Virus record (IMG/VR): IMGVR_UViG_3300044647_001141
Span: 1 to 54,235 of that record
Origin: a virus
Strand: one strand, 5' to 3'
DNA: 54,235 bases
A program made the position numbers and the translations under genes. Every line of letters begins with the position of its first letter. Position 1 is the stretch's first letter. Positions 3,422-12,034 of this stretch are shown in pieces. The notes below the pieces were generated by a model. That model worked only from the letters and a program-made list of their open reading frames with translations. It was not told where the DNA came from and ran no database searches.

Positions 3422-5345
3422 GGTTTTCAACGAGCTTGACTACGACGACGACGGGGATCCGATATACACCGAACAGATGCTTGAGTTCATCCATCAGGAA
3501 CTCGACCGCATCGACAACGGATATTTCTTCTACAACAACCAGAAGCTGGTGTACATCACCGGTGAGCATTATTTCTACATAAACTACTGGACACTTGAGA
3601 ACGATGAGAGACCCGACTATCGCGACTGCGACCGCAGGTGGTTCCTGTTCAAGGACTACTGCCAGCAGCATCCGAGCATAGACGGCGTCATCCGTATCAA
3701 AAAACGCCGGGAGGGTGCTACATCCCAGGAGACCGCATGCCTTGTCAGGACGGCCCTGCGTAACCGCAAGGCGTTCTGCGGCATCATGTCAAAGACCGGA
3801 AAGGATGCCAAGGACTGTTTTGTGAAGATGGTAAAGAACGGATTCGATCAGCTGCCGATATTCCTGAGGCCGACCAACATCGAAGACCCGGACTCGCAGA
3901 TGCAAATTGTGTTCCGAAAGCCGAAGGAGCGCAGTGCCGCCAAGCTCAAACTGAAGCGAAGGAAGGGCCAGGTGTTCGAGGATGACAAGGGCATCGGCAG
4001 CCGCATAGACTTCAGAAATACCGAGCTGAACTCCTATGACTCCGGCAGGCTGACGGAGATACTTGTCGACGAGGGCGGTAAGTTCCCGCCGGATGTGCCG
4101 ATCAATGAATACTGGCCTATCGTCAGGCAGACCCTCCGGCAGGGCGGAAAGAAGGTCGGCTTCTGTGTCATGCCCTCGACGAGCAACAAGCTCACCAAGG
4201 GTGGCCGGGGGTATAAGGTGCTGTGGGACGAGAGTAACCATATCGAGTCTAAGATAACCGCCACGGGACTCTACCGGTATTTCTGTCCGGCACACGATGG
4301 CTACCCTCCCTTCATTGACAAATACGGCAACAGCATCATCGAGAAGCCGACGCGCGAGCAGCAGCTATGGATGAAGGAATACTACGGCGCCACCGATGAC
4401 CAGTGCGAGATGAGTGCAAAGGAATACATCCTGTACCGCCGTTCCCTCATCCGTAACATGGACGCACGCAACGAGGAGACAAGGATGTTCCCGCTCAACG
4501 AGAAGGAGGCGTTCGACTTCGACGACAATACCAATATCTACAACCTCACGGCCATCCGTGACCAGCGGGAATACCTCACAGAGAAGCGACCGGTGCTGCG
4601 GCGTGTCAGGTTCACCAGGGACCGGGATGGCAAGGCGACATGGATAAACGATCCCGACGGCATGTGGCTGGTACTTCGTTTCCCGGACAGCAGCGAGGAG
4701 AACGCAACGATGAGCGATGCGGTGACATCAAAGGTGTCGCCGGCCAACAGGTCTAAATACATTCTGACGGCGGATCCATACAAGAACACCATCGTGGTCG
4801 GGCAGGGGTCAAAGGGTGCCGCCATCGTATGGAGCAAGTTCAATCCGCTTGACCCGGAGAACACGGGCATGCCAATCGCCTTGTTCTGGGGGCGACCAAG
4901 GCGCAAGAAGGAGTTCCACATGCAGATGCTGCTTGCCGGCGAGTTCTGGGGGTGCGAGTTGTGCTATGAGAGCGACTACGATGACTACATCGAATTTCTC
5001 ATGGACGAGGGCAAGATGTCATACGCCATGAAAAGGCCGAAGAACACCATAGATCCGAACAGGAAGCGAAAGGTGATGGGAAAGGAGTATGGCGTCAAGT
5101 CGGGTGACGGGTTCAGCTATTCGATGATGATCGACCGGAGCGTGGAATACGTCGACCAGTACTGCCATAAGATCTACTTCGATGACATCCTCGATCAGCT
5201 CGAAGAATACAGCGAGGAGGAGCGGACACTCTATGACATCGCCGTGGCATTCCAGTTGGGAACCGTCGCCATCAGCGACCCGGTGAAGAAGACAAGGGCG
5301 GAGGCCAAGAAGATGAAACCGTACATGAGGACATACCAGTTGTAA
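3303..5345 (+). CDS. terL: Terminase large subunit
   Basis: A 680-residue ATPase-nuclease that packages DNA through the portal. The N-terminal ATPase has a degenerate Walker A at residues 134-142 (KRREGATSQ), a Walker B at 252-257 (EILVDE) and a coupling motif at 287-295 (FCVMPSTSN). The C-terminal RNase H-like nuclease begins with an acidic 'ILTADPYKN' strand (about residue 490), continues with 'ESDYDDYIEFL' and ends with 'YDIAVAFQLG'. The length suits terminases of podoviruses infecting Bacteroidota. I kept the ATG at 3303 because the upstream residues look conserved (PPKQQYFRR), although this overlaps the previous gene by 119 bases. Confidence 0.92.
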   Translation: MKEQIYGVTVTYPQIPSANKIANRELPPKQQYFRRAETPEVFNELDYDDDGDPIYTEQMLEFIHQELDRIDNGYFFYNNQKLVYITGEHYFYINYWTLENDERPDYRDCDRRWFLFKDYCQQHPSIDGVIRIKKRREGATSQETACLVRTALRNRKAFCGIMSKTGKDAKDCFVKMVKNGFDQLPIFLRPTNIEDPDSQMQIVFRKPKERSAAKLKLKRRKGQVFEDDKGIGSRIDFRNTELNSYDSGRLTEILVDEGGKFPPDVPINEYWPIVRQTLRQGGKKVGFCVMPSTSNKLTKGGRGYKVLWDESNHIESKITATGLYRYFCPAHDGYPPFIDKYGNSIIEKPTREQQLWMKEYYGATDDQCEMSAKEYILYRRSLIRNMDARNEETRMFPLNEKEAFDFDDNTNIYNLTAIRDQREYLTEKRPVLRRVRFTRDRDGKATWINDPDGMWLVLRFPDSSEENATMSDAVTSKVSPANRSKYILTADPYKNTIVVGQGSKGAAIVWSKFNPLDPENTGMPIALFWGRPRRKKEFHMQMLLAGEFWGCELCYESDYDDYIEFLMDEGKMSYAMKRPKNTIDPNRKRKVMGKEYGVKSGDGFSYSMMIDRSVEYVDQYCHKIYFDDILDQLEEYSEEERTLYDIAVAFQLGTVAISDPVKKTRAEAKKMKPYMRTYQL

Positions 5346-7806: not shown

Positions 7807-7944
7807 TTACCGGCATGTGGCATTTATGACATATTTATTTTTGCTGCCGGGATTATCACGCAGCGCATCAGCAAAATGTTCCTTTGCCTGTCTTAATGCG
7901 ATCAAAGCATTGACTACACTACTTGCCCCTTTGTTCATTGCCAT
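7807..7944 (-). CDS. 45-residue small protein, possibly a truncated larger family member
   Basis: A short gene of 46 codons including the stop. It starts with ATG at 7942-7944 (MAMNKGASSVVNALIALRQA) and ends with TAA at 7807-7809. The helical core LIALRQAKEHFADALRDNPGS has good codon use and polarity for a real protein, and it overlaps the 3' end of the preceding gene by 26 bases. I recall similar 'ALIALRQAKxHFxxAL' N-termini in longer phage proteins, so the short length may mean a truncation. It fills the otherwise empty interval 7749-7918. Confidence 0.45.
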   Translation of the reverse strand: MAMNKGASSVVNALIALRQAKEHFADALRDNPGSKNKYVINATCR

Positions 7945-10008: not shown

Positions 10009-11706
10009 TCATAAATTCTTTTGAGTATTCTCGTATTCTTCAATAGTCTTGAAGATGGCATATGGAATCTGAGGTACTACTGCATTCCCGTATGCCTTGA
10101 TGGATTCGTTTCGCCACTTTGACCAAGCGGAAACTGTCCTCCTCTCGACTTCCATAGCAACCAGTGCAATTTCATGTGACAAGTACGGCATAGTGTCTGC
10201 AAATTGTTCCTTGAATTGTTTTTCCAATTCTCGTCCTTGTGGTGTATTTGCAAATGTTCCGTACTCCCGCAGTTTTCGCAGTAGTGCCTCCGATGTTTCC
10301 TCGCTAAATGCAGATGTCCCTTTCTCGTCTGTATTGGAGGGCGAACATAACTGCAAGACTTTGAGCAGTATTGTCGGCTCATGTATCTTGTATAATCCTC
10401 CCAGATATTCCCGAATTTCCTCCGATTGAAGGATATCCCACACTTCCTGCAATTCTTGATCGGTGTATCTTTCAGTGATTGTGGCATATATTTCCGGCTT
10501 TATATGTCTAACCATCCAGTCGGAAACCCCATCATACTTTCCACAAATTGGGGATTGAGTTGGGAACTCTTCCCAGTCTGGGCGAATGCATCCGGAAGTG
10601 AATTTGTTTCCGTTCTGCCCGATGCTTCCAATGCCTCCGAAGATCTCGCCCCCTTGTAATCTCTCGTTGCCGGTGTCGGCAGCATCCCCATTGCCATTGC
10701 TCTGCTCAATGTCACCGAATGCATTGAACCTTCCTTGACTTGACTGCTCTTCATCTTCGCAGTCGCATTCGTTGAATCCATTGCGGTCGGAGTCGGCAGC
10801 ATTTGTAACCTTGCCATTTGCTTCAATGGCATTTGTAAATTCACCCCCTTCTCTGCCCATTTCTCCTTGTCTATCTCCCATTTTTCGGGTGTCCTGGCTG
10901 AGTTCCAATCGAAGGCGTTCGGGGTCGGGAGCAATCCCATTGTTGCATAATCGTTCAGACCAAATGTCCATCCTTGTGATATTTTCCGTTTCGTTCTGCC
11001 ATCCTCCATTTTGCTGCCATACTTCTCGTCCCTTGTTTGTGGTGTCGGCAGCATCCCCATACTTGCCATCCGACCTATGTTGAGAGAATGACTGCTCTTC
11101 CCATCCGTTGTCTTCCGTCTTCCGTTCTCGTTCATCTCGCAATCCGATTCCGGTTCCTGGGTTGTTGGTGTGGGCAACAAACCAAACTCTGTCTCTGCGG
11201 TGGACAGAGCCGACACCTGCAGCTGGAAGTACATACGATTGTACTTCGTACCCTTCAGCTTCCAGGTCAGCTTGCACCTCGTGGAATACCAGTCCTCCCG
11301 ACCAATTAATAAGGCCGAAAACGTTCTCTCCCACGACCCATGTTGGCTGAACTTCCCGAATGACTCTAAGCATTTCCGGCCAGAGATGTCGAGAGTCTTC
11401 CTTGCCGAGTCTTTTTCCGGCTGCGGAGTAGGGTTGGCAGGGAAATCCACCGGTGAGAATAATGTCATCTGTTCTCCAATTGTCCCCAAATCTTTTTGAG
11501 AGTTCATAGTTTAATTTTTCGTAGGTGAGTGTATGTATGTCATCATGGTGGTACGCATCAGGCCAATGATACTGCAAGACATTATTTCCAAATGGATTTA
11601 TTTCGCACGAGGCAATGTTTGTCCAACCCATCCATTCGGATGCCAGATCAAACCCTCCGATTCCACTAAATAGACTTATGTGAAGCATCTTCTTTACTTT
11701 TTTCAA
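10009..11706 (-). CDS. C5 cytosine-specific DNA methyltransferase with two nested reading frames
   Basis: A 565-residue protein that would transfer methyl from S-adenosylmethionine to cytosine C5. Motif I is FSGIGGF (13-19), motif IV GGFPCQPYS (86-94, nucleophile C90), motif VI GENV (126-129), motif VIII HRRDRVW (169-175) and motif X GNAVVPQ (540-546). The 364 residues between motifs VIII and X are far longer than usual, polar and Asn/Gly/Glu-rich with repeated DAADT-type segments. Residues about 67-402 and 407-543 are also read in a second frame as the LPTP-repeat and HNH proteins. The frame has to be continuous because motif X lies after both. An ATG at 11688 is an alternative start. The product may shield phage DNA from restriction. 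Confidence 0.85.
   Translation of the reverse strand: MKKVKKMLHISLFSGIGGFDLASEWMGWTNIASCEINPFGNNVLQYHWPDAYHHDDIHTLTYEKLNYELSKRFGDNWRTDDIILTGGFPCQPYSAAGKRLGKEDSRHLWPEMLRVIREVQPTWVVGENVFGLINWSGGLVFHEVQADLEAEGYEVQSYVLPAAGVGSVHRRDRVWFVAHTNNPGTGIGLRDERERKTEDNGWEEQSFSQHRSDGKYGDAADTTNKGREVWQQNGGWQNETENITRMDIWSERLCNNGIAPDPERLRLELSQDTRKMGDRQGEMGREGGEFTNAIEANGKVTNAADSDRNGFNECDCEDEEQSSQGRFNAFGDIEQSNGNGDAADTGNERLQGGEIFGGIGSIGQNGNKFTSGCIRPDWEEFPTQSPICGKYDGVSDWMVRHIKPEIYATITERYTDQELQEVWDILQSEEIREYLGGLYKIHEPTILLKVLQLCSPSNTDEKGTSAFSEETSEALLRKLREYGTFANTPQGRELEKQFKEQFADTMPYLSHEIALVAMEVERRTVSAWSKWRNESIKAYGNAVVPQIPYAIFKTIEEYENTQKNL
10077..10487 (-). CDS. HNH endonuclease nested in the methyltransferase gene
   Basis: A 136-residue HNH nuclease in the same frame as the LPTP protein and offset from the methyltransferase. 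Zinc-type pairs are C13/C16, C41/C45, C70/C73 and C100/C103. The catalytic core is 'LQIHHKDENWKNN' (H82, H83, N87, N90) followed by 'NLQTLCRTCHMKLHW' (H104, H108), the standard HNH layout. Such proteins cut DNA as homing enzymes, restriction enzymes or packaging partners. The ATG at 10485-10487 follows the LPTP stop by 12 bases. The C-terminus ends inside the codons for methyltransferase motif X. A match this specific cannot be explained as a shadow frame. Confidence 0.8.
   Translation of the reverse strand: MPQSLKDTPIKNCRKCGISFNRRKFGNIWEDYTRYMSRQYCSKSCSYVRPPIQTRKGHLHLARKHRRHYCENCGSTEHLQIHHKDENWKNNSRNNLQTLCRTCHMKLHWLLWKSRGGQFPLGQSGETNPSRHTGMQ
10500..11507 (-). CDS. LPTP-repeat phage protein overprinted on the methyltransferase gene
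   Basis: A 335-residue protein in another frame of the same strand as the methyltransferase. It starts at ATG 11505-11507 after an A+T-rich leader. The N-terminal part has 'LDISGRKCLESFGKF', 'WERTFSALL', 'LTWKLKGT' and 'MYFQLQVS'. Five LPTP motifs follow at residues 111, 153, 193, 237 and 276, 39-44 residues apart. The end is 'QLNPQFVESMMGFPTGW'. I recognise this architecture from many phage and prophage proteins of unknown role ('SGRKC...LTWK...LLPTP...LNPxFVExMMGFPxGW'), so the frame is very unlikely to be accidental. Its stop lies 12 bases before the nested HNH gene. Confidence 0.7.
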   Translation of the reverse strand: MNSQKDLGTIGEQMTLFSPVDFPANPTPQPEKDSARKTLDISGRKCLESFGKFSQHGSWERTFSALLIGREDWYSTRCKLTWKLKGTKYNRMYFQLQVSALSTAETEFGLLPTPTTQEPESDCEMNENGRRKTTDGKSSHSLNIGRMASMGMLPTPQTRDEKYGSKMEDGRTKRKISQGWTFGLNDYATMGLLPTPNAFDWNSARTPEKWEIDKEKWAEKGVNLQMPLKQMARLQMLPTPTAMDSTNATAKMKSSQVKEGSMHSVTLSRAMAMGMLPTPATRDYKGARSSEALEASGRTETNSLPDAFAQTGKSSQLNPQFVESMMGFPTGWLDI

Positions 11707-12034
11707 CTGTTATGTCATCGCCGGCAATGATGCAATCGATGATCGTCTCGACTACCTCTCGCTCTTTCGGACTCAGCTTGGCGATCTTCTCCTGTATCGC
11801 CAGTGTGGTGAAGACATCCGACTCCCATTCTGCCCGTATGCCGTCTCGTATCACCTGGGGGAAAAGGGGGTATGTAATGATGTCGCCATAAATCCATTCC
11901 AATTTTGCGCAGTACTGCTTCATCAACCTTGCGCCAATGGTTCCCGGGTTCTCTCGTTGGAAAGAACCAAAATGCTCATACGCCTGTCTGACGGAATGGA
12001 TGGCGTTTACCAGATCTGATGCTCCTGATTTCAC
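11666..12034 (-). CDS. Hypothetical helical protein upstream of the methyltransferase
   Basis: A 122-residue protein starting at GTG 12032-12034, overlapping the previous stop (ATGTGA), and running 41 bases into the methyltransferase start. It is helical with a Trp/Tyr-rich centre (YCAKLEWIYGDIITYPLF, DGIRAEWESDVFTTLAI) and an acidic end (KSKEDASHKSI). No catalytic motif or domain is recognised. Tight overlaps on both sides indicate co-translation with the replication protein and the methyltransferase. Confidence 0.6.
   Translation of the reverse strand: MKSGASDLVNAIHSVRQAYEHFGSFQRENPGTIGARLMKQYCAKLEWIYGDIITYPLFPQVIRDGIRAEWESDVFTTLAIQEKIAKLSPKEREVVETIIDCIIAGDDITVEKSKEDASHKSI

Follow-up and report, generated by a model that had tools for sequence, protein, structure and literature searches.

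A probable mobile, out-of-frame HNH element of the homing type in a phage cytosine-C5 methyltransferase gene

Introduction

Homing HNH endonuclease genes usually ride in introns or inteins. The locus described here raises the question of how such a gene might live inside a protein-coding gene without splicing, as an HNH endonuclease ORF lies entirely within, and out of frame with, a cytosine-C5 (m5C) DNA methyltransferase (MTase) gene. The locus lies in a 54,235-nt IMG/VR virus record, IMGVR_UViG_3300044647_001141 (positions 1 to 54,235), which is hereafter called the window and which also encodes terminase, portal, primase/helicase and integrase. Free-standing homing endonucleases can be tolerated in an important gene without splicing, as is mobE in nrdA of phage Aeh1; nrdA is split in two by mobE, whereas the window MTase is read through in a second frame.

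Out-of-frame HNH insertions have been described in mycobacteriophage methylases as the ShiLan domain (Arsenault, Gosselin and Gogarten, Genes 2025), with a second case in Pacc40 (PMC11855218). In the sections of that report drawn on here, no ribosome-binding site was detected and both leaderless GTG initiation and homing were proposed (PMC11855218). Mycobacterium phage Applejack has a methylase, gp54, with an out-of-frame HNH protein, gp55 (PMC12613952).

Results

Nested genes of the window

The features of the locus are listed below.

10009..11706, minus strand: alpha, a cytosine-C5 DNA methyltransferase ORF (PF00145, 3e-35; phrog_363, 6e-68)
10500..11507, minus strand: LPTP ORF, 335 aa, in the +1 frame of alpha (phrog_1008 'DNA methyltransferase', 7e-36)
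10521..10559, minus strand: stretch LNPQFVESMMGFP resembling motif IX, LPTP frame (motif pattern; hhalign)
10121..10518, minus strand: inserted element, approximate extent, net +375 nt relative to HNH-less alleles (motif distances and L010 alignment)
10077..10487, minus strand: HNH endonuclease ORF, 136 aa, ATG start (PF01844, 24.1 bits, 4e-5; phrog_1271, 2e-12)
10072..10092, minus strand: codons of alpha motif X (YGNAVVP), read directly from the sequence

The host gene, alpha, is an ORF of 565 aa with motifs I-VIII and X in its frame, and motif IX is absent from that frame. The program-listed TTG at 11706 probably does not mark the real start; the conserved LHISLFSG stands downstream of an ATG at 11688. 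The HNH ORF lies entirely within alpha in its +1 frame, which is also the LPTP frame, and starts four codons downstream of the LPTP stop. Its PF01844 score exceeds the curated cut-off, and a PF01844 search found no second HNH in the 54-kb record. The HNH stop TAG (10079-10077) falls within the motif X codons that specify GNA-VV in alpha, confirming the original prediction that the nested gene ends in this motif. The over-long spacer in which that prediction placed the gene does hold the HNH, but it houses two nested genes, LPTP being the other, and the HNH-specific share of its length is only +375 nt.

LPTP as the probable beta subunit of a split methyltransferase

Pfam and NCBIfam searches with the LPTP ORF returned nothing useful, and PHROGs did match. 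The LPTP C-terminus, L-N/S-P-x-F-V-x-x-M-M-G-F-P-x-D-W-T, resembles motif IX, R-L-T-P-x-E-C-x-x-L-Q-G-F-P-D-D-Y-T. With hhalign it aligned onto motif IX of single-chain MTases over 24 columns, a weak match in the right place (E 0.0085, probability only 4.7%). In the EcoHK31I system the beta gene lies inside alpha in another frame, and we know of no HNH there. The larger subunit of M.EcoHK31I carries motifs I-VIII and X and holds the predicted target-recognition domain (TRD), and the smaller carries motif IX (PMC3404938, PMC3439449, in the portions used here). By motif the window shows the same division as this type of split cytosine-C5 MTase, with motif IX on a separate small polypeptide and I-VIII plus X on the large one. 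We therefore read LPTP, on its sequence, as probably the beta subunit of an EcoHK31I-like split MTase, and call it beta below.

LPTP was nested in an MTase in the same +1 frame in all 80 LPTP relatives found, and an HNH was present in just two of them, L005 and L009, the latter being the window's own sequence. LPTP nesting is thus old and general and does not belong to the HNH insertion. LPTP as part of a mobile unit was rejected on these counts, and the question whether an HNH gene had invaded with or without LPTP is answered as without. With the HNH stacked on an older nested beta gene, three proteins, alpha, beta and HNH, would be encoded in a single piece of phage DNA.

As a separate observation, a single set of DNA repeats, read in two frames, gives both the repeated LPTP units of beta and the repeated A-D-T/S-x-N units of alpha (window 10500-11706).

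Insertion boundaries and empty sites

The distance from beta motif IX to alpha motif X was 92 nt in 11 of 11 HNH-less relatives in which both motif patterns matched; the comparison is limited to these 11 loci because the motif X pattern missed many others. In the window and in L005 the distance was 467 nt, which is 375 nt (125 codons) more. The beta tail of HNH-less alleles (GFPTDWTVLPFLNGEMNPSKDMGMQ in L010) is shortened in the window to GFPTGWLDI, and the end of the L010 tail recurs as the end of the window HNH protein (SGETNPSRHTGMQ). The HNH protein ends like the HNH-less beta tail, and the HNH ORF therefore extends into pre-existing DNA and uses a ready-made stop, its C-terminal tail lying outside the inserted element.

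Over 4467 nt, ending midway through the MTase, L010 matched the window at 99.96% identity, and 3' of that point the two differed; L010 is therefore a close but not isogenic empty allele. A cleaner empty site was found in the comparison of L093 with L212, where the approximately 150 extra codons consist of a Shine-Dalgarno (SD) sequence and the HNH gene, and the flanks are closely similar on both sides. The comparison of L285 with L249 showed a single-chain MTase with the insertion after motif IX and before motif X. The check originally suggested was whether the HNH segment is precisely absent from close MTases lacking the spacer; the HNH-less relatives show near-precise empty sites in two comparisons (window with L010, L093 with L212). 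A degenerate spacer of HNH length was noticed, incidentally, in none of the HNH-less relatives looked at.

Two ORFs of similar sequence (SGASDLVNAI.. / KGASSVVNAL..), 11666-12034 and 7807-7944 (minus strand), lie on either side of the MTase region of the window, and in L010 a copy lies directly after the MTase. These copies suggest a recombination hot spot.

Coding evidence in both frames

Codon shuffles, in which one protein was kept, its synonymous codons were shuffled and the other frame was checked for stops, were applied to the window and to the family. When the window HNH protein was kept, the MTase frame was open in 0 of 2000 shuffles, and when the MTase segment was kept the HNH frame was open in 100 of 20000. 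Across the family, with the HNH protein kept, the host frame was open in about 0.15% of shuffles on average (0.054 open frames expected in total). In 34 of 35 observed cases the host frame had no stop before the end of the HNH; the 35th host stopped 10 nt earlier, and the third frame was open in none of the 35.

Substitutions were analysed in nine disjoint pairs, pooled at kappa 1-4. HNH omega given host-synonymous changes was 0.19-0.26, and host omega given HNH-synonymous changes was 0.55-0.72; given HNH-nonsynonymous changes, host omega was 0.78-1.17. Single pairs scattered widely (HNH 0.11-0.81, with 0.81 in L002-L092; host 0.36-1.71). The HNH frame is thus under strong purifying selection and the host frame under weak selection. 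On these values the HNH protein is constrained, and what is mainly preserved in the host frame is its openness.

An SD match of at least 5 nt preceded 12 of 36 nested starts compared with 47 of 811 control out-of-frame ATGs; at the HNH starts of the window, L005 and L006 no SD match of at least 4 nt was found. The catalytic and zinc residues (CxxC/HH/N/CxxCH) were invariant in 30 aligned family members, the window included. AlphaFold (AF2) predicted the window HNH with a mean pLDDT of 85 and a beta-beta-alpha HNH core, so that motif, zinc cysteines and fold are all those of the HNH endonuclease superfamily. In the AF2 model of alpha (28-row alignment, mean pLDDT 52) the catalytic core was ordered, and pLDDT fell below 50 over the beta-overlapped residues 186-373 and most of the HNH-overlapped residues 385-543. 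PDB fold matches of the HNH were weak (best Foldseek E 0.049, best Z 6.0) and included a nicking HNH, endonuclease VII, EcoKMcrA and PacI. No homing endonuclease stood above Z 3.3 in the VIA list of structure matches.

Distribution of nested HNH genes and their hosts

The HNH alignment was used to scan viral and genome contigs, which yielded 71 and 45 loci respectively; L002, L003 and the window bring the total to 119. At 47 of these loci an m5C MTase ORF spanned the entire HNH, and the relative frame was always the same, +1. These 47 include copies of the same contig, with about 36 distinct, and the loci are related, so that the counts are not independent. They comprise the best 34 of the 71 viral matches, six of the other 37 viral matches, the best four of the 45 genome matches, and L002, L003 and the window. 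Four of the remaining 31 viral matches were nested in other hosts and 27 were not nested this way; none of the other 41 genome matches was MTase-nested. A free-standing HNH did not occur among the best 34 viral matches, all of which lay in m5C MTases. A search of a plasmid collection with the L125 HNH gave no match.

The hosts belong to several m5C subfamilies and were found in a Staphylococcus phage, two Komagataeibacter phages, an Arachidicoccus contig and environmental contigs. The HNH lies just upstream of motif IX in most of the single-chain MTases seen, and otherwise between IX and X (L285) or, in the split type, after the motif IX of beta. HNH genes nested at this position thus recur elsewhere, whereas finding none would have refuted the original prediction.

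Other HNH subfamilies were found in the +1 frame of two further kinds of host, each mid host ORF. Two lie in family A DNA polymerases (L129:958-3660, L144:1395-3800), between the DLH motif and the R..K..nFG motif, and two in intein-like proteins (L135:1791-4340, L146:1491-3860). By our own reading the L135 host is a terminase-like protein; that of L146 is a helicase. Their intein Pfam matches (26.2 and 34.4 bits) are below the curated cut-off of 35.8, and splice-junction motifs are readable by eye at both ends. The HNH of L135 and L146 looks to be out of frame within an apparent intein instead of fused to a splicing domain. The HNH of L144 and L146 had few relatives in viral contigs, with no nested case among the new loci looked at, and these two cases therefore rest on single contigs.

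Presence of the HNH was scattered. On a tree of 75 MTases of one subfamily, with 17 HNH-positive rows of which most were chosen for having HNH, 8 changes are required to account for the trait, and starred branches force at least 3 of these. Two MTase searches gave a nested HNH in 10 of 103 loci, same-contig copies and the two query loci counted. The HNH and MTase trees agree in their deep groups, and transfer between distant MTase types is therefore rare or old. Identity in the HNH did not consistently track identity in the target-recognition region. In several pairs the HNH was 71-75% identical and the target-recognition regions 34-42% over part of their length. L110-L111 showed 77% in the core, 35% in the TRD and 72% in the HNH, and L104-L110 showed the reverse pattern (TRD 82%, HNH 61%).

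Two observations on single loci belong here. The nested HNH at L268:4031-4348 is without the N-terminal zinc-finger part and is probably a deletion derivative. In the deposited annotation of L002 (phiKX1, LC644975), alpha, beta and HNH are split into short 'hypothetical proteins', with the HNH started within its core, and the nested set is missed.

Discussion

An HNH element of the homing type

The feature is probably a mobile, splicing-free, out-of-frame homing-type HNH element in a phage cytosine-C5 MTase. That an HNH gene invaded a spacer and left the MTase readable, as was originally proposed, is supported by the near-precise empty sites, the scattered presence, the several MTase subfamilies and the lack of intron and intein signatures. 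We propose that the HNH gene was placed in a variable spacer of the MTase gene and written in its +1 frame, and that the MTase frame therefore reads through the insert, which would form a tolerated loop, 125 codons long in the window, that is probably folded poorly. The HNH would use its own start, with a ribosome-binding site in many lineages; in the window, translation by re-initiation after beta is likely because the HNH start follows the beta stop by four codons. It would end at a stop already present in the conserved DNA of motif IX or X. We infer that the HNH protein is made and cuts or nicks HNH-less alleles close to the insertion point, and that repair from the carrier allele would then copy the element into the cut allele. 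Judged from the trees, homing, if any, would be mostly within MTase types, or the association may be old with many losses; parts of the data agree with a long shared descent and repeated loss.

Alternative explanations

Close ties between nuclease and MTase could also mean that the two work together. If they formed a restriction-modification pair, as the original prediction allowed, the HNH would cut a site protected by the MTase and their overlap would couple expression. All close HNH family members are indeed m5C MTase-nested, with none free-standing among the best 34 viral matches, the deep HNH and MTase groups agree, and HNH folds are known in restriction enzymes (EcoKMcrA, PacI). Yet the HNH is sporadic among near relatives, the insertion point varies (before IX, between IX and X, after the IX of beta), and other HNH subfamilies are nested alike in DNA polymerase and inteins. 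A nuclease that in several pairs stays 71-75% identical where target-recognition regions fall to 34-42% over part of their length, with the reverse in L104-L110, disfavours a matched pair, which we regard as unlikely. The shared m5C host class would also suit a domesticated accessory nuclease, comparable to Vsr beside dcm, whose genes overlap. Such a protein would nick deaminated 5-methylcytosine mismatches or shape recombination around the MTase, and both the strong purifying selection on the HNH and the fold neighbours, which include a nicking HNH and endonuclease VII, agree with it. Most HNH-less sisters nevertheless manage without the HNH, and the same arrangement with other HNH subfamilies occurs in non-methylating hosts, which makes this role quite improbable.

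The remaining explanations deny the insert its place in the mature host message or protein, or deny the HNH its reality. Removal by a self-splicing intron or intein-like element would be in keeping with the usual carriers of homing HNH genes, and at two other loci (L135, L146) a nested HNH does lie inside what looks like an intein. In the window and L005, however, the insert length is divisible by three, and the host frame is open. Rfam at gathering thresholds gave no family in the window or seven relatives and no group I intron core match, and the Pfam intein model matched neither the window MTase nor four other MTase hosts (L105, L093, L096, L131). Both an intron and an intein were rejected on these results; splicing here is very improbable. 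It would take still more to read the HNH ORF as something that arises only from reading a conserved MTase domain in another frame. The MTase-frame segment is conserved too, with host omega below 1 given HNH-synonymous changes, but constraint is two to three times stronger on the HNH frame, the zinc and catalytic residues are invariant, SD sequences are enriched at nested starts, and the HNH frame folds confidently (pLDDT 85) while the MTase-frame segment does not. A spurious ORF is contradicted by these four lines and was rejected; we give this reading next to no credence.

Relation to known out-of-frame HNH insertions

The homing-type element preferred here resembles the ShiLan domain in kind. 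Both have an HNH in a phage methylase gene with an open host frame and no intron or intein found, a disjunct distribution and a low-confidence host-frame structure (PMC11855218, as far as the sections used here describe it). In the window, full nesting with an open host frame goes together with HNH-less homologues and with no intron or intein by Rfam and Pfam. The differences are several. ShiLan gp65 is an N6/N4 methylase (PF01555, from the ShiLan sequence itself) and the window host is cytosine-C5; the ShiLan HNH is in the +2 frame and the window HNH in +1; and the ShiLan HNH belongs to another HNH subfamily, its match to the profile of the window HNH family being largely confined to the core region (E 4e-6 among 63 ORFs). 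An SD-preceded ATG is common in the m5C-nested family, whereas leaderless GTG was proposed for ShiLan, and the window has a probable beta subunit gene, whereas the sections of the ShiLan report used here describe none (PMC11855218). Since host enzyme, frame and HNH subfamily differ, the window element works like the ShiLan domain but is a different element. Applejack gp54/gp55 has the same arrangement as the window, in a mycobacteriophage (PMC12613952, in the part used).

Our literature search for HNH genes nested in methyltransferases, and for similar arrangements, gave nothing relevant beyond the ShiLan and Applejack reports. In that search the m5C-specific +1 HNH family, its size, SD use and dual-frame selection were not found, nor were stacking on a nested beta gene, a polymerase host or intein hosts of an out-of-frame HNH; an actinobacteriophage-intein preprint (reference 7 of the ShiLan paper) lay outside its coverage.

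Wider meaning

Several HNH subfamilies, nearly always in +1, occur in cytosine methyltransferases, family A DNA polymerases and apparent inteins. It is tentatively conceivable, at somewhat short of an even chance, that second-frame encoding ranks with introns and inteins as a third general means by which homing genes reside in protein-coding genes without harming them. What was a curiosity of a few actinobacteriophages would then become a broad, testable class of selfish genes, offering many natural empty-site alleles and a measurable dual-frame constraint. Nested HNH genes would account for unusually long phage methyltransferases and for nucleases overlooked in annotation, and would provide a clear system for how a homing gene survives without splicing.

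In-frame stops in related alpha genes

A further observation concerns split-type alpha MTases in which TAACTA stands exactly before the codon of the motif IV catalytic cysteine (GGFP, then TAA CTA, then TGC CAR), placing an in-frame stop at the active site. It is carried by L013, L018, L036 and L038 and by 18 contigs (L322-L339), the two sets overlapping in part. Most copies remain intact as far as motif X, as does beta, and the protein upstream of the stop is as little as 0.38 identical from copy to copy. Programmed +1 frameshifting onto the beta frame, a bypass and an off-switch are conceivable explanations. L071 has another single in-frame TAA in its alpha ORF, at a different place (4099-4101; GKRLGK*DERH).
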